The notes under the pieces: model-generated | The model's input: the letters and a program-made list of their open reading frames with translations, nothing else | Database searches by the model: none | What the model was told of the DNA's origin: nothing | Position numbers and translations under genes: made by a program | Source of the DNA: Prochlorococcus sp. AG-315-D17 | GTDB lineage: Bacteria > Cyanobacteriota > Cyanobacteriia > PCC-6307 > Cyanobiaceae | Assembly (NCBI GenBank): GCA_003283685.1 | Contig: QBWD01000006.1 | Location: forward strand, 1-48,698 | Direction of reading: 5' to 3' | DNA: 48,698 nucleotides | Shown: positions 1 to 11,867 of the stretch, piece by piece | Numbering within the stretch: the first letter of the stretch is position 1 | Layout of the letters: each line of letters starts with the position of its first letter

Positions 1-560
1 GGAAGACTTCCTAGATCCTCTGGAGGATTCATGTAATCAGTTACGAAATTCGACATTTCTTTAGGAGTTGAATGTTCAGTTGGTAGGGCTCTACCGATCC
101 CTATGGATTTGAAATCCGCGGGAATCGGGCAGATGCTTAGCTCATGCGGTTGCCATGAGACTGCCCTTGTTGTCTCGTCTTCTTGCTCGGCTTCTGTTAT
201 TACATAACCTGTTGAAATACCTCTTAGAATCCCTGCCTCTACGTCTTTACGAACTTCTAAAGCTTTTGGATTAGTTGCCCATTCAATCTCTGCGCGACCT
301 TTTCGATCCTGTATCCATGCCTTTCTAACTCTGCCAAGAATTGAGTCAGGATTGTGATTTAGCAATAACGGAGCAGTTCCAGAATTAAGACGGCTTAGGT
401 CAACGGAACCCTCACCATGATCTAAAACCTCATCCCCGAAATATCGTTTTACAGGCTCTTCAGATGAGAAGGAAAATTCAAGTCGGTCAGACCTATCTTT
501 AGGCGCATCAATTTCAATGAAGCGATGTTGTAATTCAATCGCTGTAGTCGAAGCAGTCAT
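1..560 (-). CDS. HK97-type prohead protease (partial, C-terminus off window)
   Basis: This reading frame starts at 560 and stays open to the left edge (186 codons), so the C-terminal part is missing. It matches the HK97/U35 prohead (capsid maturation) protease family, which cleaves scaffold and major capsid protein during phage head assembly. Visible hallmarks are LLLNHNPDSILGRV with the presumed catalytic His at about residue 69, GISTGY with the presumed catalytic Ser at about residue 116, and the following WQPHELSICPIPAD and IGIGRAL segment, all in family order. A GAGG sequence lies just 5' of the ATG. The gene overlaps the 45-aa ORF upstream by 26 bp. In some phages this domain is fused to the major capsid protein, which cannot be judged here. 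Family call is from motifs, without a database search. Confidence 0.85.
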   Translation of the reverse strand, partial: MTASTTAIELQHRFIEIDAPKDRSDRLEFSFSSEEPVKRYFGDEVLDHGEGSVDLSRLNSGTAPLLLNHNPDSILGRVRKAWIQDRKGRAEIEWATNPKALEVRKDVEAGILRGISTGYVITEAEQEDETTRAVSWQPHELSICPIPADFKSIGIGRALPTEHSTPKEMSNFVTDYMNPPEDLGSL

Positions 561-672
561 CTTCCTCTAGTAATTGTTTTTGATAACGTCGAAATTGAGC
601 CGACTTAAGAACGTCATCCAACGGCGAGGGAGGCCGTGGCGCGTCATCATCGACTAAAATAAAGTCAGTCAT
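535..672 (-). CDS. 45-aa acidic small protein of the element
   Basis: A 46-codon frame starts ATG at 672 and ends TGA at 535-537, inside the 5' end of the prohead protease gene. The product begins MTDFILVDDDAPRPPSPLDD and continues with a short basic stretch (QFRRYQKQLL) and an acidic end (EEDDCFDYSD). It has no membrane segment and no family I recognise. The 26-bp overlap in a different frame suggests translational coupling to the protease. No clear Shine-Dalgarno sequence precedes its ATG, and short open frames occur by chance, so this is a plausible rather than certain gene. The composition and position would fit a small accessory or scaffold-like morphogenesis protein, but that is speculation. 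Confidence 0.45.
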   Translation of the reverse strand: MTDFILVDDDAPRPPSPLDDVLKSAQFRRYQKQLLEEDDCFDYSD

Positions 673-1009
673 ATAGCAGATTCTACGGAGTTTTGTTGCC
701 TGAGAAGGGTTGCAAATACTGAATTAACAGGGGCAAAACCTAAAAACTAATTAACGAGCAGTAAAAGACATTAAAAGTTGCTGTTTATCGCCTTTATGTC
801 TCTTAAATCGTCTTATTTTCGCTTAATTAATTATTTCAATTTCATGATCAAGGCGTAATAATTGCGATTCCTTCGGCACCTTCGGCACTTTTTGCGAAAC
901 TTTTCTCTCGCATTACCACTCTCTAATACTTCATACCTTTTATCTAAATAAGTGGTGAGTGCTGAAGGAGTTGGTTTATATCCCTGTCGGTGAAATCGTT
1001 TTCAAACCT
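673..1009. other. 337-bp non-coding interval, candidate replication origin of the element
   Basis: No convincing reading frame occupies this interval, which lies directly downstream of the VapE gene. It contains an AT-rich tract around 803-848, a perfect 9-bp tandem repeat CCTTCGGCA (870-878 and 879-887), an inverted relative AGTGCTGAAGG at 958-968 (one mismatch to the reverse complement of CCTTCGGCACT), and a further inverted pair ACCACT (916-921) / AGTGGT (951-956). Repeats next to an AT-rich segment beside the replication gene resemble satellite and plasmid origins, where a Rep/primase-helicase binds iterons. Origin function is inference. The repeats might instead form a terminator or a promoter region for the capsid gene cluster. 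Confidence 0.4.
870..887. repeat. tandem 9-bp direct repeat (iteron-like)
   Basis: The unit CCTTCGGCA occurs twice without spacing, followed by CTTTTTGCG. A degenerate inverted copy lies at 958-968, and a CCTTCAG core recurs at 1007-1013 in the end of the VapE gene. Only two exact units are present, so an iteron role is tentative. Confidence 0.6.
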
Positions 1010-2275
1010 TCAGGACATTTCTAACTGCTGAGGGTCCCGATTGATTTTGTACCACTTACGAGGAATAGTTACACCGCCTTTTGTTGTCTGATTGTGTTGC
1101 TCAAAACCCAAATCTTTCAACGCACTAGAAGCTAATTTCAGATCAGGATTTTTTACTTGATTGCGATCTCTACAGCCCGACTCAGTCACGGCTTGAGCAG
1201 TTGTAAACCCTTTTTCCTTTCCCTTTTCGTAATAATCAACCTTCCATTTTGGATTGTTTATCCATTGATAAATTTGGAAGTAAAACGGATTCTCGGCCTC
1301 ATATAGATGATTGTTTTCATTTGATTCTCTTTGCTCCTCTTCCGTTAATCGTGGCTTTTCTCCCTCGCGATATGCCAGAACTGCCGCTTTCAAAATCCTC
1401 TCTCTATCCCTCATCAATTTCTTGAGATCAATCAGATTGTCCTTTAAATCAATAATCCAAAATCTTCTAGAGCCTGTTGGGTCATTTAAGAAGTCGGAAG
1501 CGTTACAGGAACCGACCAAAACAGAAGGTCTTGGATGCTTGCCAATAGTTCTTGCATAAGGACGTTTAAAAGTATCAACCGAGGAACTAAGAATTGCTTT
1601 TATTTCTCCCTGATCCTTTTTAGTGGTCATTGAATCAAGCTCTGCTATTTCCATAAACCAGCAAGTTTGAATGGCCATGTATAGGTCTTGATGTTTTTCC
1701 TGCCACGTATCGCAGAACCAATCATCACTAGCGAGCAACCGCCAAAAACTACTTTTCCCTATACCTTGTGAACCTTTTAAAACGCAGCAAGTATCAAACT
1801 TACAGCCTCGATCAAAGACCCTTGCAACTGCCCCGATAAGAGTTGCTTTGAGCATCGAATCATAAAGAGGTTTATCCGTGCCGAGGTAATCAGTCGAAAT
1901 TTTATTGAGGTCTATTCCTTGTATATTTTCGTTTTTTTCTAACTCCTCTAAATACTTAACGACTGGATGAAAAGCATTTTTTTGAGCCGCAACTAATAGG
2001 GCATCTTGAGCGCATCCTTTACTTACTTCATATCCCAACTCAGAGAGAAAAACATAGTAGTTTTCAATTAAGTCATTAGGGATTGGATCACCATCAAATT
2101 CAGGTTCAAGATTTAACAGGTTGTATCTCAGTCGCGTTTCATAGTGGATTTTCAAAAGGGCCGATAAATCACCAGCTCTAAAATTTTTCCTTGTATCTTC
2201 CATCTCTCCAGAATCCTTATTTCTTTTCTGGAACCAGCCACTAGGTAAAGAATGAACGATCGATAATTCAGACAT
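1010..2275 (-). CDS. VapE/VirE-family replication ATPase (phage-satellite helicase)
   Basis: The 421-aa product has the core of the virulence-associated E family (SF3/AAA+-like ATPases found in phages, satellites and pathogenicity islands, where they act as the replicative helicase module). The Walker A loop GSQGIGKS is at residues 168-175, a Walker B-like hydrophobic acidic stretch (CWFMEIAELD) at about 205-214, a sensor-1-type Asn in SVLVGSCNAS near 258, and the conserved PTGSRRFW arginine motif near 266-273. The C-terminal 80 residues look like a winged-helix region (TTAQAVTESG...SSALKDLGFEQH). There is no recognisable primase domain at the N-terminus, so it may need a separate primase. 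It is the last gene of a leftward run and overlaps the upstream gene by 8 bp. It very likely replicates the element from the adjacent repeat region. Confidence 0.9.
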   Translation of the reverse strand: MSELSIVHSLPSGWFQKRNKDSGEMEDTRKNFRAGDLSALLKIHYETRLRYNLLNLEPEFDGDPIPNDLIENYYVFLSELGYEVSKGCAQDALLVAAQKNAFHPVVKYLEELEKNENIQGIDLNKISTDYLGTDKPLYDSMLKATLIGAVARVFDRGCKFDTCCVLKGSQGIGKSSFWRLLASDDWFCDTWQEKHQDLYMAIQTCWFMEIAELDSMTTKKDQGEIKAILSSSVDTFKRPYARTIGKHPRPSVLVGSCNASDFLNDPTGSRRFWIIDLKDNLIDLKKLMRDRERILKAAVLAYREGEKPRLTEEEQRESNENNHLYEAENPFYFQIYQWINNPKWKVDYYEKGKEKGFTTAQAVTESGCRDRNQVKNPDLKLASSALKDLGFEQHNQTTKGGVTIPRKWYKINRDPQQLEMS

Positions 2276-2666
2276 GATTCTCCTCCGCTAAGTGTCGGCG
2301 GATTGCTTTTAAAGTTTTTGGTTTTGTTAAAGGACGAGGCTTAAAGATCTTCGGAATATGTCTTTGCGTTTTCTGCTCAGGGTCATAGTTCGACCAGAAC
2401 TCATCTAAAACTTGATGCTTCAATCTGGTGTAATGACCTTTTTCAGCCAAGTAAGGATTGAACTTGTCATTAGGTGGCAAGACTCGATGGATGTAAACCA
2501 AGTCTTGAAAGAATCTTTCCTCTTCTGACTCTGGAAATTTGCCCATAGGCGACCAGAAATCACTTTGTTGAATTGGGTTTAATCCTCTTCTAATTCCCGT
2601 AATTGTTACCGCGCATTCAAGAGCAAGATGGACTTGCTCTTCTCTTAGTAATTCCTTGAGGTCCAT
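2268..2666 (-). CDS. unknown 132-aa protein of the element
   Basis: No family recognised. The product begins MDLKELLREEQVHLALECAV, is mixed in charge, and has a basic, proline- and lysine-rich C-terminal third (HIPKIFKPRPLTKPKTLKAI) that could contact nucleic acid. There is no signal peptide or membrane segment. It sits directly upstream of the VapE gene with an 8-bp overlap and one base after the preceding gene, so it is almost certainly co-transcribed and translationally coupled with the helicase. A primase-associated, helicase-loading or DNA-binding role is possible from context only. Confidence 0.7.
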   Translation of the reverse strand: MDLKELLREEQVHLALECAVTITGIRRGLNPIQQSDFWSPMGKFPESEEERFFQDLVYIHRVLPPNDKFNPYLAEKGHYTRLKHQVLDEFWSNYDPEQKTQRHIPKIFKPRPLTKPKTLKAIRRHLAEENHV

Positions 2667-2667
2667 T

Positions 2668-3036
2668 TCAGAACCCCGCTCTTTTTAGTTTTGTGTTTGT
2701 CTCATCAATGAATTGGTTGTGACCTTCTTTGATCTTGATTAACGAGTGATAACACTGGTTATGTTTACGGCAAAGATCAGCGCACATTTGCTCAACATGC
2801 TTTACGCGCGCATGGAGGTTTTGATTTTCTGCTCGGAGAATGTCGTTATCTCGGACAAGATGAGCCACCGTTGCAGTTGTAATCGCTAGCCTTTTTCCAA
2901 GTAATTGAGTTCCTTCAAATCTGAGGACTGGTTTCCAACATTCGTAATATTCCTCAGCCAGATCGACTAAACTTGCTTCTACATCATTATTTATTGGAGC
3001 CTCGTTGGAAGCGGGGCTTTTTTCTTGTTCAGTCAT
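2668..3036 (-). CDS. unknown 122-aa coiled-coil protein of the element
   Basis: No family recognised. The acidic N-terminus (MTEQEKSPASNEAPINNDVE) is followed by a helical region and, at about residues 62-100, a heptad-like stretch (DNDILRAENQNLHARVKHVE) typical of a short coiled coil. Cys and His residues follow (QMCADLCRKHNQCYH), spaced so that metal binding is conceivable but unproven. It overlaps the upstream 78-aa gene by 4 bp (ATGA type) and is one base from the downstream gene, so it belongs to the same operon. A dimeric regulator or DNA-bridging protein would fit the shape; no function is claimed. Confidence 0.7.
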   Translation of the reverse strand: MTEQEKSPASNEAPINNDVEASLVDLAEEYYECWKPVLRFEGTQLLGKRLAITTATVAHLVRDNDILRAENQNLHARVKHVEQMCADLCRKHNQCYHSLIKIKEGHNQFIDETNTKLKRAGF

Positions 3037-3269
3037 TTGCCCTCGATGATGTCTAGGGCCTGTCGGGTTAGTTCAGGGTTTTCTACTAGCCTTTCTGCTA
3101 TTTCTTCAGGTCTGTATTGACTGGCTCCCACGCTGGTTCTTTCTCGGAAAACATCCTTAAAGAGTTCCATTACTGACTGCTTTCTATCGCAGAAATGGAC
3201 ATAATCGATTGCCTCTTGCTCAGTATCAAAAGTTTGATAACCGACAGTGAAAGTAGATTTAATATCCAT
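3033..3269 (-). CDS. unknown 78-aa protein of the element
   Basis: No family recognised. The first 25 residues (FTVGYQTFDTEQEAIDYV) look like a small alpha/beta segment in which a short strand pair precedes a helix. The remainder is helical and charged, ending in EIAERLVENPELTRQALDII. It overlaps the upstream RHH gene by 11 bp and the downstream gene by 4 bp, which argues that the frame is real and translationally coupled. It is too small and too featureless for a functional call; early-gene accessory proteins of satellites are often of this size. Confidence 0.65.
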   Translation of the reverse strand: MDIKSTFTVGYQTFDTEQEAIDYVHFCDRKQSVMELFKDVFRERTSVGASQYRPEEIAERLVENPELTRQALDIIEGK

Positions 3270-3456
3270 TGATTTTCACCTCATGACGCTTAAGGCAGTC
3301 AAGAATGCACGCGCGCATTAGTTCCGCTCTGGTGCAGTTGTATTTACTAAGGGCTAACTGATCAAAGGCTGTTTGAATCTCTGGTGGAACCTTGCAAGCG
3401 ATGATCGGATCGGGTACAACTTTCCGCGTTGGTCTGTCTATTTGAAGCAATGACAT
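3259..3456 (-). CDS. ribbon-helix-helix (CopG/Arc-like) regulator
   Basis: The 65-aa product has the pattern of a ribbon-helix-helix DNA-binding protein: a short strand (DPIIACKVP, about residues 17-25), helix A (PEIQTAFDQLALSKYN), a turn with CTRAE, and helix B (LMRACILDCLKRH). Such proteins bind DNA as dimers of dimers, inserting the strand into the major groove of inverted or tandem half-sites. It is the first gene of the leftward operon. A perfect 7-bp inverted repeat lies 2-23 bp before its ATG, so autoregulation and control of the element's replication genes is the natural inference. No Shine-Dalgarno sequence is seen; the palindrome occupies that position. Confidence 0.7.
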   Translation of the reverse strand: MSLLQIDRPTRKVVPDPIIACKVPPEIQTAFDQLALSKYNCTRAELMRACILDCLKRHEVKINGY

Positions 3457-3457
3457 A

Positions 3458-3503
3458 AGAGAACAAAAACGAGTTCTCTCTACGTTTAATGGCTCCTGAG
3501 AAC
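3458..3503 (-). promoter_or_regulatory. putative operator/promoter of the element operon
   Basis: AGAGAAC (3458-3464) and GTTCTCT (3473-3479) form a perfect 7-bp inverted repeat with an 8-bp spacer immediately 5' of the regulator ATG. A third half-site, GAGAAC on the + strand, is at 3498-3503. On the minus strand a weak -35-like TTGCAA (about 3504-3509) precedes this half-site. The arrangement fits a repressor that covers both promoter and ribosome-binding region. Alternatively the palindrome is an RNA hairpin hiding the start codon. Confidence 0.45.
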
Positions 3504-3556
3504 GATTGCAATTACTAGGTTATCGTGAATTATTGGTTAGTTGGTAAAGAGGAGTG

Positions 3557-4309
3557 CTAACTCATTACCATGCCACCGTCAACTTGAATGGTTTGTCCAG
3601 TTATATAAGCAGCAGATGGATCTGCCGCTAAAAATCTTACAGCCCCTGCAACATCATCTGGATTACCAAAACGCCCAAGAGGTATAGCAGATAGAATTAC
3701 TTCGCTGTTGAGATCTTTAGTCATGTCAGTTGAAATAAAACCTGGAGCTACTGCATTAACAGTTATCCCCCTGCTAGCAAATTCTTTAGCTGCACTTTGT
3801 GTTAGACCAATTACACCTGCTTTGGCTGCAGAATAATTAGCTTGACCGGGATTACCCATTAATCCAACTACAGAAGTAATATTGATTATTCTTCCTTTCT
3901 TTTGTTTCAACATCTGCCTTGAAACTGCTCGTGTGCAATAAAAAACGCCACTTAAATTAAGGTCTAGTACATTTTGCCAATCGTCAGTTTTCATCCTCAT
4001 AAGAAGTCCATCTTTAGTTATTCCTGCGTTGTTAACCAAAACATCAATTTGATTGTTTTTTTCTAAAACTGCTTTTATCAATTCATTAACTGAGTTTTCA
4101 TTGGAAATATCAGCTTGGAGGGCATACGCTTTTCCTCCAAAAGACTTTATTTCTGAAACGACTTTATTTGCATTTTCTAGAGAAGAAGAATAATTGATGA
4201 TTACTTCTGCTCCTTCCTTTGCTAAAAATATTGCAATTGCCTTACCAATTCCTCTACTAGCACCTGTCACAACGGCAGTTTGTCCTTCAAGTAATTCTGA
4301 TGAGGTCAT
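3557..4309 (-). CDS. fabG: 3-oxoacyl-[acyl-carrier-protein] reductase
   Basis: FabG reduces 3-oxoacyl-ACP to 3-hydroxyacyl-ACP with NADPH in type II fatty acid elongation, in the cytosol. The 250-aa length is standard. The glycine-rich nucleotide loop TGASRGIGKA is at residues 15-24, NNAG at about 93-96, the catalytic Ser in INITSVVG near 146, and YSAAK with catalytic Tyr159 and Lys163. The C-terminus ends in QVDGGMVMS, the usual FabG ending, so the gene looks intact despite lying at the edge of the mobile element. It is divergent from ispD across 151 bp. Other SDR enzymes are alternatives, but the FabG-specific ending and length make this call strong. Confidence 0.93.
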   Translation of the reverse strand: MTSSELLEGQTAVVTGASRGIGKAIAIFLAKEGAEVIINYSSSLENANKVVSEIKSFGGKAYALQADISNENSVNELIKAVLEKNNQIDVLVNNAGITKDGLLMRMKTDDWQNVLDLNLSGVFYCTRAVSRQMLKQKKGRIINITSVVGLMGNPGQANYSAAKAGVIGLTQSAAKEFASRGITVNAVAPGFISTDMTKDLNSEVILSAIPLGRFGNPDDVAGAVRFLAADPSAAYITGQTIQVDGGMVMS

Positions 4310-4432
4310 AATCTTGTGATTTTTGATTTGGTTGGATTTATTCTTTTTTAACTTACTATTCTGAGTTTTGATTTTAGAGAAGTTTTTAGACTATATCTTA
4401 AAAGTAGTTATTTCTATTGGTCGAATATATTA

Positions 4433-4454
4433 GATAATGAATTCATGAGAGGAA
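4433..4454 (+). promoter_or_regulatory. putative -10 box and Shine-Dalgarno of ispD
   Basis: GATAAT at 4433-4438 is a good -10 match, and AGAGGAA at 4448-4454 is a Shine-Dalgarno sequence correctly spaced to the GTG at 4461. If this -10 is used, the leader would be very short. No clear -35 is seen. The ribosome-binding site is the main reason for choosing the GTG start. Confidence 0.4.
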
Positions 4455-4460
4455 TCAGTT

Positions 4461-5135
4461 GTGCATTTGTTGATTGCAGCTGCCGGAAGCGGAAGTCGAA
4501 TGGGTGCCGATCGAAATAAACTCTTATTAAAGATCGCAGGGAAGACGGTCATAGAGTGGACTTTGAAGGCAGCTTTTGCCTCTAAATCAATAAAGTGGAT
4601 TGGAATTGTTGGTCAACCAAAAGATAAAAGCTCAATCTTTCAAATTCTTGAAAACTCAATTAACTCGGTTAGATGGATCAATGGGGGAGAAACAAGACAG
4701 GAGTCAGTTCAACTAGGCTTGTCGGGGTTACCCGATGATGCGAAACATGTTCTGATTCATGATGGAGCAAGATGCTTGATTAGCCCATTAGTTTTTGATG
4801 AGATTTCAAGAATTGTCTCTAATGGAGATGCTGTTATTGCCGCTTCTCAAGTGTCAGACACTATTAAAAGGGTGAATAAAGATGGAGAAATAATTGATAG
4901 CCCTCCTCGTGAAAATCTTTGGTGCGCACAAACACCTCAGGGCTTTCCAGTGAAAAAATTAAAGGATGCACACAGTAAAGCGATATCTAATGGGTGGCGT
5001 GTCACGGATGACGCATCCTTATTTGAGCGTTTAGGTATTCCTGTGAAGATATTTAATGCAGGCCCATCAAATATTAAAGTTACAACTCCATTTGATTTAG
5101 TTATAGCAGAGTCTTTGTTGGGAGCTGACAAATAA
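4461..5135 (+). CDS. ispD: 2-C-methyl-D-erythritol 4-phosphate cytidylyltransferase
   Basis: IspD joins CTP and MEP to give CDP-ME, the third step of the plastid-type MEP isoprenoid pathway that feeds carotenoids, phytol and quinones. The 224-aa product opens with the CTP-binding loop [19 protein letters not shown] at residues 5-23. It continues with the family segments [24 protein letters not shown], and [11 protein letters not shown] followed by TDDASLFE. The start is GTG with a good AGAGGAA sequence 6 bp upstream. The 3' end overlaps the convergent LD-carboxypeptidase gene by 35 bp, so the two mRNAs are antisense over their last codons. Confidence 0.95.
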
Positions 5136-6024
5136 CACTAAGTCTACCTCTCTTGCCATCAATGATACCTTTAAATCCTAATGGCATTGATGCATTTCCA
5201 TGGCAATGTCCTATGGGTAAATTGGAAAGGATAGGGATATTAAGATCTTTTGTTCGATCTCTGAAGATCTCATTAAGTTCAAACGTCTTATTTTTATCGA
5301 CGTTATCATTGTCATCACATTTAGAAAAAGACCCAAAGCCTAAACCAGAGATCTCTTTTAAAATACCAGTTAATCTTAATTGAGTTAACATTCTATCAAT
5401 TCTATAAGGAGCTTCTCCAATATCCTCAAGAATGAGAATTGCTTCTTTGAAGATAGGCAGATGCTTTGTACCAATCAAATGAGTCATTACTGTAAGATTC
5501 CCAACGATTAAATGTCCTTTTGAAACTCCTCCTCCCCAAGGGTCTCCATAAATATCAGGTATGGAATTTCCAAATAAAATTGATTTAAGTCTGTTTTTGC
5601 TCCAATCTGGTTCATTCCCTAAAGTTGTAACTAGTGGTCCGTGAACCCCTCCAAGAAATCCACTTGCAAGTCTTGCAAAAAGTATCGAAGTTAAGTCTGA
5701 GTAGCCAATCAACCATCCTTGTTTCCATGGCTGGACTCTTTCTAATAATCTGGCAGAACCCCATCCTCCTCTGGCAAAAGCTAGAAGAGGAAATAATTTT
5801 TCTGGATGTAGTTCCTTAAATCTGACTTCATCGTCTCCGGCTAAATAACCCCAATATCTATCTATAGAATCAATATCATTGCAAATCAAGCCCCATTCTT
5901 CAAGTACTTTAATCCCAGATGAAAGATCTTCTTTGCTATTAATTGGAGAACTTGCGGCAACTATATGAAAAACGTCACCTTTTTTTAGAGGTCTAGTTGG
6001 TTGATATGATTTTAGTAAAGACAT
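5101..6024 (-). CDS. ldcA: LD-carboxypeptidase (peptidase S66 family)
   Basis: Family S66 enzymes remove the terminal D-Ala from muropeptide tetrapeptides during peptidoglycan recycling; MccF-like self-immunity enzymes share the fold. The 307-aa length is typical. Visible markers are [12 protein letters not shown] near residue 84, the nucleophile elbow GYSDLT with Ser109, the segment [29 protein letters not shown] with Glu200, and IGHCHGN with His273, which together give the Ser-Glu-His triad. No signal peptide is present, consistent with a cytosolic recycling enzyme. It starts three bases after the ubiA stop, so the two are likely one leftward transcript. The gene symbol is by family resemblance. 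Confidence 0.85.
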
Positions 6025-6027
6025 TTA

Positions 6028-6894
6028 TTAATTTACTTTGCTTAGAACCATGCCCAAAAGTATTAAGCTTCCGATCCATACTTGATTCTTAAAATGTTTC
6101 CCTGAAGCTTTGATCCCTTTTTGCTTGAACTTAAGTAAGTATATTTCTCGTTGCATTCCAAAAGTTGATAGCAACCAAAAAGGCCAGAAAGACCACCCTA
6201 AACTTGCTTTGAATGCTCCAAAACCTAAGAAAACACATGATAAAAGGTAGCTTAAAGAAACAGCATTGAATGACTTGTCGCCGAGACTTAGAGCACTACT
6301 ATTGAGACCAATCTTTTTATCATCGAGTTCATCTGCCATGGCATAGACAGTATCAAATCCAAAAGTCCAAAATACTGTTGCAAGCCAACAATAAAGAAGA
6401 GATATATCTCCTGATAAAGAGGATTGGCTTGCCGCCCAAGGAATTAAAACTGAGAAACCCCAACATATTGCAAGAATAAATTGAGGAAATTTAAACCATC
6501 TTTTTGCTGAGGGATAAAAAAGAATTAAGGGCAAAGACAATAAAGCAAGTTGAAGGCAAAGATTTCTACTCTCCATTGGAAGTAACAGGACAACAAACAA
6601 ACTCAATAACAAAAATACAAAAAGAAGAAAACACGCTGTGTTGATAGAGACAGTTCCTTTAGCTAAAGGCCTTTCTTTTGTTCTTGTAACTTTTTCATCA
6701 AAACGTCTATCCCATAAGTCGTTTGCAATACATCCAGCACCACTTACGAAGAGGCCCCCTAAGAGTATCAACCCAAATATGAATATAGAAGGGGGCGCGG
6801 ATGGTGTTAACCAAAGTGCCCATCCAGCTGGAATTAGCAGTATCAATCTTCCACTTGGCTTATTCCATCTGAATAATTGAATCCAATATCTCAT
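6028..6894 (-). CDS. ubiA: 4-hydroxybenzoate polyprenyltransferase (UbiA family)
   Basis: This integral membrane prenyltransferase attaches a polyprenyl tail to 4-hydroxybenzoate; in cyanobacteria the homologue acts in plastoquinone synthesis. The 288-aa protein is rich in hydrophobic helices. It has the first Asp-rich motif NDLWDRRFDEKVTRTKERPL at about residues 58-77 and the second, DTVYAMADELDDKKIG, near 180-195, both of which bind diphosphate-Mg2+. Other UbiA members such as chlorophyll synthase or homogentisate prenyltransferase are alternatives, but the TKERPLAKG segment and length fit the 4-hydroxybenzoate type. It lies upstream of the LD-carboxypeptidase gene and divergent from ppx. 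Confidence 0.9.
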   Translation of the reverse strand: MRYWIQLFRWNKPSGRLILLIPAGWALWLTPSAPPSIFIFGLILLGGLFVSGAGCIANDLWDRRFDEKVTRTKERPLAKGTVSINTACFLLFVFLLLSLFVVLLLPMESRNLCLQLALLSLPLILFYPSAKRWFKFPQFILAICWGFSVLIPWAASQSSLSGDISLLYCWLATVFWTFGFDTVYAMADELDDKKIGLNSSALSLGDKSFNAVSLSYLLSCVFLGFGAFKASLGWSFWPFWLLSTFGMQREIYLLKFKQKGIKASGKHFKNQVWIGSLILLGMVLSKVN

Positions 6895-6934
6895 TTTATT
6901 TTGAAAAAATAAAATTACTCATTCACAATTGAAT

Positions 6935-6997
6935 TTGACAAACATTGCTTGCCCCTTCTCAATATGGGGCTGTTAATGCCAGAGTAATCAAGGTGAT
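6935..6997 (+). promoter_or_regulatory. putative ppx promoter and ribosome-binding site
   Basis: A consensus -35 TTGACA lies at 6935-6940. The best -10-like bases are CAATAT at 6960-6965 with a long 19-bp spacer. AAGGTGAT at 6990-6997 is a good Shine-Dalgarno match before the GTG at 7003. The promoter assignment is weak; the RBS is convincing. Confidence 0.35.
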
Positions 6998-7002
6998 CCT
7001 AC

Positions 7003-8643
7003 GTGGTTATGTTAGGTGAATCAACAAATGATTCTTTTAAGGAGAATTCAATAGAAGTGGATTCCGCTCAGAATCAAGATAGAGGCATCTGTCGAATAGG
7101 AACAATAGATATTGGTACTAACTCAACTCATTTATTGATTGCAAAGCTAGATCAAACACTAAATACTTTTAGTATTGAGCTGGCAGAGAAATCAACAACT
7201 CGCTTAGGAGAGAGAGATTCAGAGACTGGAGAACTTACTTCGTTAGCAATGAATAGGGCTTTTGAAACACTAAAAAGATTTAAAGAGTTATCTACCAGTT
7301 ATAAAGTAGAAAGTCTTTTAATTGCAGCCACAAGCGCTGTAAGAGAGGCTCCAAATGGGAAACATTTTTTATCTCAGATAAAAAAAGAAATTGGATTAGA
7401 TGTTGAATTAATCAGTGGTACGGAAGAAGCTAGGTTGATTTATTTAGGTGTACTTTCAGGAATGCAGTTTGGGAAGGAGCCTCATTTAGTTCTTGATATA
7501 GGAGGAGGCTCAACTGAATTAATTCTTGCCGATAGTACTGATGCAAGAGCATTAACAAGTACAAAAATAGGAGCAGTACGTTTGCAAAGAGAGTTCATAA
7601 AAAAAGATCCATTATCGTCGGAGAACTTGTTATTTTTAAGATCATTTATTCGAGGTTCAATGGAGGCTGCAACTGATAAGATCTCTAAGAGGATTGGATC
7701 AAATGAACAACCAGTTTTAGTTGCAACAAGTGGAACGGCAATGGCAATTGGCGCATTAATATCGAATAAAGAAAATAATATTCAAACAAAATTACAAGGA
7801 TATAAAATCTCTAAGAGAAGTTTAGATAGGGCAATTGATGACTTGTTGAAAATGTCTCCATCTGAACGGTGTAATCTGCCCACATTAAGTGAGCGAAGAG
7901 CTGAGATTATTGTCCCAGGGGCTTTGATTTTGCAAGTGGTAATGAATATGTTTAATATTAACGAGTTTGTTTTAAGTGAAAGAGCTCTTCGTGAAGGCTT
8001 AGTAGTTGATTGGATGTGTCGAAATAATTATTTGCAGGATCGGTTAAGTTTTCAAGGTTCAATAAGGGAAAGAACAGTTTTACATCAATGTCAGAGATTT
8101 GGAGTCAATTCAAAACGATCAAAAATAGTAGCAGAATTTGCACTTTCTTTTTATGATCAAACCAAAGGAATCTTACATAATGATAAGGGTCAAGGTAGAG
8201 ATCTTCTTTGGGCTGCCGCTAAACTTCACTCCTGCGGAAAACATATAAATATAAGTTCTTATCATAAGCACTCATGGTATTTAATTAAACATGGAGAATT
8301 ATTAGGCTATTCACAATCTGAGCATTTAATGGTAGCAGCAATTGCTAGATATCATAGAAAAGGTTTTCCTAAGAAAAGGCATGAATCTTGGCAATTGTTG
8401 ATTGATTCCAATCAAAGGCAATTGGTAAATGAAATGTCCTTGCTACTTAGGTTGTCATGTGCGATTGATAAAAGACCAGAACCATTGATCTCTAAATTGA
8501 TGATTAAGGTGAGAAATGAACGAGTTGAGATTGAATTAATCCCAAATCAATTAGGTCAAAACTTAGATCTAGAAAAGTGGAGTCTTAATAATGTAATTTC
8601 TATAGTTAGAAAGAATAATGATAAGGATATTACTGTCCTTTAG
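7003..8643 (+). CDS. ppx: exopolyphosphatase (Ppx/GppA family)
   Basis: Ppx/GppA phosphatases hydrolyse terminal phosphates of polyphosphate (and pppGpp in some members). The 546-aa product has the actin-like ATPase fold markers IGTIDIGTNSTHLLIAKL (about residues 32-49), a central LVLDIGGGSTELIL near 165, and ATSGTA near 245. A C-terminal HD-type region follows with LWAAAKLHSCGKHIN and AAIARYHRKGFP, as in full-length Ppx. The GTG at 7003 is preferred over the ATG at 7009 because AAGGTG is 6-8 bp upstream; both give almost the same protein. It overlaps the convergent RodZ-like gene by 4 bp. In a phosphate-limited ocean cell it would mobilise polyphosphate reserves. Confidence 0.93.
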   Translation: MVMLGESTNDSFKENSIEVDSAQNQDRGICRIGTIDIGTNSTHLLIAKLDQTLNTFSIELAEKSTTRLGERDSETGELTSLAMNRAFETLKRFKELSTSYKVESLLIAATSAVREAPNGKHFLSQIKKEIGLDVELISGTEEARLIYLGVLSGMQFGKEPHLVLDIGGGSTELILADSTDARALTSTKIGAVRLQREFIKKDPLSSENLLFLRSFIRGSMEAATDKISKRIGSNEQPVLVATSGTAMAIGALISNKENNIQTKLQGYKISKRSLDRAIDDLLKMSPSERCNLPTLSERRAEIIVPGALILQVVMNMFNINEFVLSERALREGLVVDWMCRNNYLQDRLSFQGSIRERTVLHQCQRFGVNSKRSKIVAEFALSFYDQTKGILHNDKGQGRDLLWAAAKLHSCGKHINISSYHKHSWYLIKHGELLGYSQSEHLMVAAIARYHRKGFPKKRHESWQLLIDSNQRQLVNEMSLLLRLSCAIDKRPEPLISKLMIKVRNERVEIELIPNQLGQNLDLEKWSLNNVISIVRKNNDKDITVL

Positions 8644-10934: not shown

Positions 10935-11867
10935 CTATACCCCTTCAGCAGATTGAACTTTTTCTACTTGTTTCTTTTTAAGGACAAGCATTATTTGTGA
11001 TAAGCCAACTCCTATAAAGAAGATTATCAGTCCAATTACTCTTGCTTTGCTTTGTAGAACTATTTCAGTATCAAGCTGACCAAACCCCCCAACATTTGGA
11101 TCATCAGTTAATTGGTATCCTGCTTCAATCGTTTCACCTTCTTTAACTAACAGAGTTGTTCCAGCAGGAATATTCTCAGCAAAAGTTTCACCTTCATCAT
11201 TACTTAAATTTATAACTTGTGTCCCATCTTCGTTAGTCTTAATGGATGTTATTGTCCCCGCTTTGCTTGAAGTGAATAAGTTGTTATTACTCTTTTCTCC
11301 AGTTGGATACACCTGACCTCTCCCTCTGTTTCCTCCTACATGAATTTGATATTTTCCAAAGTGAATGTTTTTGTCTTTAGTAGGATCTGGAGAAAGTATT
11401 GGAAAAACGATTTCTCTGTTTTGATCTCCTGGTAACGGACCTACTAAAAGGATATTTTCTTGATCTTCACTGTATTGAGTGAAATATACACCTTGGGTTT
11501 CTTCTTTTATTTCATCAGTCCATCTTTCTTGAGGAGCAAGTTTAAATCCATCAGGAAGCATCACAACTGCGCCTACTTGAAGTGGAACTTTGCTTCAATC
11601 TGCCCCAATTTCTTGTAAATCTTTTTTATATGGAATTTCTACTACAGTCTTGAAAACACTATTAGCGGCAACAGATTGAGGGACTTCTGCTCTGGTTGAC
11701 ATGCTTGCGATATGGCAATTAGCACAAACTATTTTCCCAGTAGCTTCTCTCGGATTTTCAAATTTTTGTTGAGCCCAAAAAGGGTAAGCCCATGTTGGTT
11801 GAGGAGTTGTAATTAGTGAAATTACAAAAAGAAAAGAACAAAGAAGAAATTTTATTAGGTGACTCAT
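10935..11867 (-). pseudogene. petA: apocytochrome f, interrupted by an in-frame TGA
   Basis: Cytochrome f is the c-type haem subunit of the b6f complex, passing electrons from the Rieske protein to plastocyanin or cytochrome c6. The frame starts at 11867 with a signal peptide ending TWA before the mature N-terminus [18 protein letters not shown], whose Tyr is the haem ligand, and has CANCH as the haem site. After residue 90 (EIGAD) a TGA at 11595-11597 interrupts the frame. The same frame then continues as [10 protein letters not shown] and [10 protein letters not shown] through [24 protein letters not shown] and a C-terminal membrane anchor to KKKQVEKVQ. Relatives have Gly (ADGSKV) at this spot, so one GGA-to-TGA change explains everything. 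No frame change is needed. Since photosynthesis requires it, a sequence error is the likeliest reason; true loss or readthrough is less likely. Confidence 0.93.

Follow-up and report, generated by a model that had tools for sequence, protein, structure and literature searches.

We analyzed a whole contig of 48,698 nt from Prochlorococcus sp. AG-315-D17 (QBWD01000006.1, hereafter the window), at the left end of which lies one end of a satellite-type element that carries a capsid gene of its own. The block occupies positions 1 to 3556, entirely on the minus strand, and abuts the stop codon of the host gene fabG. Leftward from fabG it comprises genes of 65, 78, 122, 132 and 421 amino acids (aa), a gap of about 340 bases, a 45-aa gene (a45) and 186 codons of a protease gene that is cut by the contig end (Table 1). 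The open reading frames (ORFs) given in a preliminary description of this DNA lay where it had placed them; a45 was absent from its gene list.

The gene at the contig end matches the Pfam family PF04586 (E = 1.9e-7; 31.8 bits against a cutoff of 21) and two PHROG families of major head/protease proteins (1.3e-36 and 2.5e-36), in agreement with its earlier naming as an HK97-type prohead protease. By homology it is the N-terminal part of a fusion of protease and major capsid protein (MCP). The VapE-type helicase, for which we found 454 matching proteins, was also as described, both of the motifs named earlier (GSQGIGKS and PTGSRRFW) being present. It had been presented as a hallmark of satellites, but it is not specific to them: with 610 matches among 50,697 phage records, the presence of VapE by itself does not prove a satellite. 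The 65-aa protein had been called a ribbon-helix-helix (RHH) regulator. That assignment is weak, the one relevant family match being a CopG-like PHROG, with none in Pfam, although the gene itself has clear homologues in 6 of the 41 genomes of one genus group. The 78-aa protein had no meaningful family match in Pfam or PHROG. The 122-aa protein was modeled by AlphaFold2 as a helical hairpin (mean pLDDT 87.9, pTM 0.54); since a search of this model against the PDB gave no match at E ≤ 0.001, a role as small terminase subunit or scaffold is unproven.

Table 1. Features of the element and of its junction with fabG in the window
Feature	Position	Strand	Basis
Prohead protease–MCP fusion, N-terminal 186 aa, cut by contig end	3..560	-	PF04586, phrog_4523/617
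a45, acidic 45-aa ORF overlapping the MCP start	535..672	-	Hidden Markov model (HMM) matches at satellite-type loci
Intergenic gap, candidate replication origin; tandem CCTTCGGCAC at 870-888 beside AT-rich DNA	673..1009	-	Shuffle test; function inferred
TTGCAA-n4-TCTCAG motif ahead of the a45-MCP operon	700..715	-	Motif scan
VapE-type helicase/ATPase, 421 aa	1010..2275	-	PF05272 1.9e-63
132-aa gene, function not assigned, syntenic in some relatives	2268..2666	-	Homologues in L298 (5e-42) and L303 (3e-26)
122-aa predicted coiled-coil gene	2668..3036	-	30 other proteins match, the window's own excluded
78-aa gene	3033..3269	-	ORF only
RHH-like regulator, 65 aa	3259..3456	-	CopG-like PHROG 0.0039, weak
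Inverted repeat AGAGAAC-n8-GTTCTCT, candidate RHH operator	3458..3479	.	By eye
Second TTGCAA-n4-TCTCAG motif, ahead of the RHH operon	3496..3511	-	Motif scan
Attachment (att) half-site: ATGAGTTA core in the last fabG codons plus element arm	3536..3565	-	Match to the L336 junction
fabG, host gene, 3′ end = insertion site	3557..4309	-	PF00106 5.1e-66; empty sites in relatives

Scanning genomes with a VapE alignment, we obtained 29 loci, and the titles of 17 name Prochlorococcus or Cyanobium. When window proteins were used as tblastn queries, homologues of the protease were found in four of these 17 (L002, L003, L006 and L010), and also in L018, a phage-like locus of another phylum. Three of the four (L002, L003 and L010) have the order regulator, two small genes, VapE, an ORF of 46–53 aa, a protease-MCP fusion of 536–537 aa, an excisionase-like gene and an integrase, with a few additional small ORFs. 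In L173, L183 and L184, VapE is replaced by a different ATPase (AAA_25 in L173). Both the protease (PF04586) and the capsid (PF05065) domain are kept in all six full-length relatives put to Pfam. Among 400 genomes of the family, VapE matches occurred in 78 and MCP matches in 43; by our own count, 16 places in 15 genomes hold an MCP that is near full length and free of stops.

In ten of 20 related MCP loci (L002, L003, L010, L171, L175, L176, L177, L181, L183 and L184) the MCP is flanked on both sides by repeats of tRNA sequence, 20–56 nt long, which enclose 7.0–9.4 kb when the nearest copies are used where several exist (L003, L183 and L184). L172, being ambiguous, was left out, and no tRNA-sequence repeat was found at the other nine loci, several of which are cut by contig ends. 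The complete window element is expected to measure about 7–10 kb, and its full order would be regulator, small genes, VapE, origin-like gap, 45-aa gene, protease-MCP fusion, excisionase-like gene and recombinase. A gene resembling the adenylation domain of NAD-dependent DNA ligase (PF01653, 6e-22) lies at 2528–3283 of L184 and is present also in L006, L010, L173, L177, L180 and L183; in L184, L006, L177 and L173 it overlaps the recombinase gene by a few bases. One contig (L180) holds two MCP satellites about 13.7 kb apart.

With proteins of the Synechococcus phage S-LBS1 as queries, no match to the large terminase subunit (TerL), the portal or the tape measure protein was found in the 20 MCP loci, several of which are short. 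A PHROG scan revealed no terminase or portal among eight L003 proteins and two further integrases, nor among nine proteins of L177 and L181 and one of L173.

The MCPs were compared in two trees. The first contained 22 satellite MCPs and 72 from phages, a row being taken as phage by exclusion where the available piece showed no TerL or portal, and it placed satellites and phages on opposite sides of a single branch with a support of 99. The second contained 21 satellites (one near-copy omitted) and 24 phages, i.e., 19 of the 72 and five new ones; among these were S-LBS1 and S-CBS3, a phage each of Roseobacter and Rhodobacter, and two MCPs encoded in host-family genomes. Here the satellite MCPs formed a clade with support of 100/99, present in all 200 bootstrap trees examined. 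In both trees the window MCP, with only 34% of the kept columns filled, falls inside the picocyanobacterial satellite clade. Its nearest row is L177, whose genus group is the one matching the window's host DNA best, although the pairing is weakly supported (85/74). A phage MCP outside the sample may nest in the satellite clade, the sampling of phages having been guided by satellite-derived patterns.

These results bear directly on the suggestion, made in the preliminary description, that the block might be a degenerate prophage. S-LBS1 does carry homologues of both genes (34% identity for VapE, 44% for the protease), but in S-LBS1 and S-CBS3 TerL and portal precede the MCP, whereas the window has VapE and a45 there, and both phages lie outside the separate satellite MCP clade. 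We therefore regard a remnant of a temperate cyanophage of this kind as very improbable. Given the bounded relatives, the failure to find portal and TerL, and the separate MCP clade, the block is part of a satellite-type element, for which helper dependence and particle formation are predicted. The gene order and MCP tree, with the bounded relatives, thus uphold the original idea of a capsid-encoding satellite-type element in a picocyanobacterium. The other half of that idea, the layout of a capsid-forming phage-inducible chromosomal island (cf-PICI), has to be abandoned, because a cf-PICI also encodes a portal and terminase; the relatives have a protease-MCP fusion only, and apart from a small terminase subunit (TerS) match discussed below none of these was detected.

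An HMM of a45, built from seven copies that are themselves among the sequences later matched, hit 38 of 313 sequences, every one at a satellite-type locus (some loci being counted twice); the matches in L002, L003, L142, L185 and L311 are marginal (E = 0.007–0.01). There was no match in 80 IMG/VR contigs or in named phages, and none in L172, L217 or one of the two L180 copies. An a45 gene with a start codon overlaps the MCP start in the window and in 11 of the 21 satellite MCPs listed. Its restriction to satellite-type loci suggests that a45 is a capsid partner. We also considered whether a45 might be the tail end of a lost portal gene and rejected this, since comparison by eye showed no likeness to the C-terminus of the S-LBS1 portal. 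An element in L298 (G018:C1:600001-619900), noted at 11003–11430, has kept a 45-aa gene very like that of the window beside a decayed MCP start, after which comes a 572-aa gene of unassigned role.

The junction of fabG with the RHH-like gene recurs in genome G024 (L336), where 25 of the 27 bases after the core are identical to those of the window; the G024 insert is decayed, with no VapE or MCP match at E 0.01. The fabG region of the window matches 34 of the 41 genomes of the genus group. We scored by eye 22 distinct fabG 3′ flanks (21 from the genus group and one from G001, repeats and matches short of the fabG end being dropped). Twelve seem to be empty, fabG being followed by a short ORF and groEL, seven carry a shared arm at the core and three have other inserts. 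Homologues of the RHH-like gene lie at the fabG-groEL site in four of the six genomes that possess them, next to fabG in G024 and on the groEL side in G023, G004 and G040; those of G051 and G020 are located elsewhere. As judged from these flanks, the fabG-groEL insertion site is real and recurrent. In L303 both arms are joined as TTAACTCATGAGTTAG, an attP-like near-palindrome centred on AT, and a near-palindromic core would explain insertion in both orientations. Within 8 kb, L303 also contains a fragmentary serine recombinase and what remains of two or more RHH-type elements.

Two of the seven shared arms in the fabG-groEL gap lead into a large serine recombinase with Resolvase and Recombinase domains. 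An intact recombinase of 627 aa begins about 60 bp past fabG in G040, and one that is 99% identical, cut by a contig end, is present in G023; in the same gap of G023, on another contig, RHH-PrimPol-VapE lies at the groEL side. Serine recombinase fragments were matched in G039 and G016, and in G031 between fabG and groEL. A serine recombinase and an MCP occur in one locus in L173 (a large serine recombinase), L182 (551 aa) and L185 (415 aa), the last two with a Resolvase domain. These three loci are not grouped on the MCP tree, and the recombinase has therefore probably been swapped more than once among satellites. In L173 (6290–15018) the capsid satellite with its serine recombinase sits beside two copies of a glyoxalase-like gene and a fragment (the latter seen by eye), so that this gene is perhaps another protein-gene insertion site. 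The recombinase gene of the window element lies past the contig end, and a large serine recombinase is its probable product. The preliminary description's distinct lineage at fabG thus stands as regards the site; the serine recombinase is a probability, and the integrase end is missing from the window.

An alternative is that the window element is an ordinary satellite of the tRNA type with a tyrosine integrase, i.e., a satellite tycheposon. Its integrase and tRNA would then be located past the contig end, and fabG would be no more than its far boundary. By homology, 14 of the 20 MCP loci have a tyrosine-type integrase, half of the 20 have the tRNA-sequence ends described above, and a tyrosine integrase is also present in L298, whose 45-aa gene and VapE are very similar. 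We nevertheless consider this unlikely, since the junction lies exactly at the fabG stop and recurs in G024, the fabG site of other genomes holds serine recombinases and their arms, and no tRNA was found in the 12 fabG-region loci scanned (the far end of the window element lying beyond the contig).

The pattern TTGCAA-n2-6-TCTCAG is matched just twice in the window (at 715 and 3511), once ahead of each operon of the block, against a chance expectation of about 0.03 estimated with equal base frequencies. The exact motif was found in 3 of 29 other loci scanned, ahead of the RHH gene in L303 and L304 only; in L181 it occurs at two places, both outside the element. Inverted repeats resembling the candidate RHH operator were seen by eye in L304 and L336. 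The repeats noted previously in the gap are real but small, the tandem 8-mers being reached by 13 of 2000 shuffles. Tandem repeats precede the 45-aa gene also in L006, L173, L180 (one of two copies), L181, L183 and L184, and were not found in L002, L003, L010, L177, L178 or L179; because they occur in only part of the relatives, the reading of the gap as a replication origin is tentative.

Taking together the gene content, gene order, MCP clade and insertion site, all directly observed, we think it reasonably probable that the block represents the regulator end of an integrated satellite-type element that has a capsid gene of its own, a serine recombinase and helper-borne packaging. From this we infer a scheme for the recombinase, helper, particle, regulation and origin. 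A helper phage would lift the repression exerted by the RHH protein, a large serine recombinase would excise the element from the 3′ end of fabG, and VapE would replicate it, starting at the gap. The 45-aa protein and the protease-MCP would be expressed from a promoter sharing its motif with the regulator operon; the MCP would mature, forming a small shell to be completed with the helper's portal, terminase and tail, and the element DNA would then insert into the fabG-groEL gap of the next cell.

Several observations weigh against this interpretation. The recombinase, excisionase and MCP C-terminus are not on the window, which ends with the contig, and the close relative L298 has the tyrosine integrase already mentioned. 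The window and G024 have the RHH end next to fabG, whereas G023, G004 and G040 have it on the groEL side; such a difference requires a core able to function in both directions. The window arm agrees with the seven other fabG-site arms at 10–14 of 25 bases, a level reached by 19 to 610 of 5000 shuffles. Many of the remaining MCP matches among the 400 genomes are fragments or carry stops, and decay of MCP-bearing elements is therefore common. TerS was matched in L185 (the one tblastn match among 20 loci) and in the IMG/VR contig L217. Finally, among the best 80 IMG/VR contigs carrying a related MCP, L217 is the only one of satellite type; TerL or portal is present on 59, and the other 20 without TerL or portal count as phage by exclusion. 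L217 carries an integrase, an MCP, a TerS-like gene (3372–3935) and a primase-like gene. Exact-word scans of IMG/VR with the window VapE and protease found no relatives, whereas alignment-based scans did.

It could also be that the element builds no shells of its own, and that its MCP spoils or resizes helper capsids as a defence or interference island. As portal and TerL were not found in the relatives, the satellite should not package alone, and in another satellite a protein that binds the helper MCP changes the size of the helper capsids (PMC12409344). Retention of both the protease and the capsid domain in the six relatives tested speaks against such a role. The capsid resizers known to us are small proteins, not whole MCPs, and overall an interference island seems rather improbable.

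A wider proposal is that a single ancient capture of a protease-MCP founded a dedicated lineage of shell-only satellites in picocyanobacteria, with a satellite-specific 45-aa partner, a borrowed portal, terminase and tail, and swapped integration systems, in which the window branch has a palindromic serine-recombinase core (centre AT) entering the fabG-groEL gap either way. We regard this as possible, if somewhat doubtful. Beyond the satellite clade it is weakened by L309 (G287:C46), where positions 4430–8100 hold a distant protease-MCP beside a PrimPol-VapE gene, with no TerL or portal on the 8.1-kb contig. The L309 MCP lies far outside the satellite clade (it was counted among the 24 phages) together with the prophage-like row L308, and L309 is possibly an independent capsid satellite.

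If the MCP is indeed the sole head gene of most members, a satellite shell would dock onto a foreign portal and motor, and the conserved 45-aa gene and shared promoter motif would offer handles on this docking in one of Earth's most abundant photosynthetic groups. As the fabG-groEL site suggests, tRNA genes are not the only places where such elements insert.

Satellite-type tycheposons of Prochlorococcus were reportedly described by Hackl and colleagues in 2023. Tycheposons integrate at a tRNA gene and have a deep-branching tyrosine recombinase. Excerpts of PMC10803314 and PMC11389934 name them as satellites, and a passage of PMC10872708 mentions seven tRNA genes. The window element resembles satellite tycheposons in host, small size and satellite-like genes, and its relatives share with them tRNA insertion and, mostly, tyrosine recombinases. 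Unlike them, it joins at its visible end not a tRNA but the protein gene fabG, a site used by a large serine recombinase, and it has an RHH-like regulator. It is related to the satellite tycheposons of the literature, yet located at a protein gene and probably equipped with a serine recombinase. Our literature search found no description of this element; as it did not cover the content of the 2023 report, absence from print is not claimed.

Charybdis elements were considered as relatives and ruled out, because they encode no HK97-fold capsid, as stated in PMC12324425. The prototype phage-inducible chromosomal minimalist island (PICMI), according to excerpts of PMC10803314, has six genes, none for a capsid, and lies beside fis in Vibrionaceae. 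The present elements are like it in being small, with an integrase, AlpA-like and replication genes and a gene overlapping int; the window element differs in its capsid gene and its location. The Synechococcus phages S-LBS1 and S-CBS3 share the protease-MCP fusion, and S-LBS1 also the VapE-type helicase, but they carry tailed-phage gene sets, and their MCPs, outside the satellite clade, are 35% and 33% identical to that of L003. Like a cf-PICI, the window element is of satellite type with its own MCP and head protease (fused in the relatives, the N-terminal part being present in the window). As defined in passages of PMC10690885, however, cf-PICIs, the known satellites that make capsids, bring a full head and packaging kit, i.e., their own MCP, head maturation protease, portal, connectors, TerL and TerS. 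In the 20 relatives portal and TerL were not found and TerS only in L185 (connectors were not searched), protease and MCP form one fused gene, and in most members the MCP is apparently the sole head gene kept.

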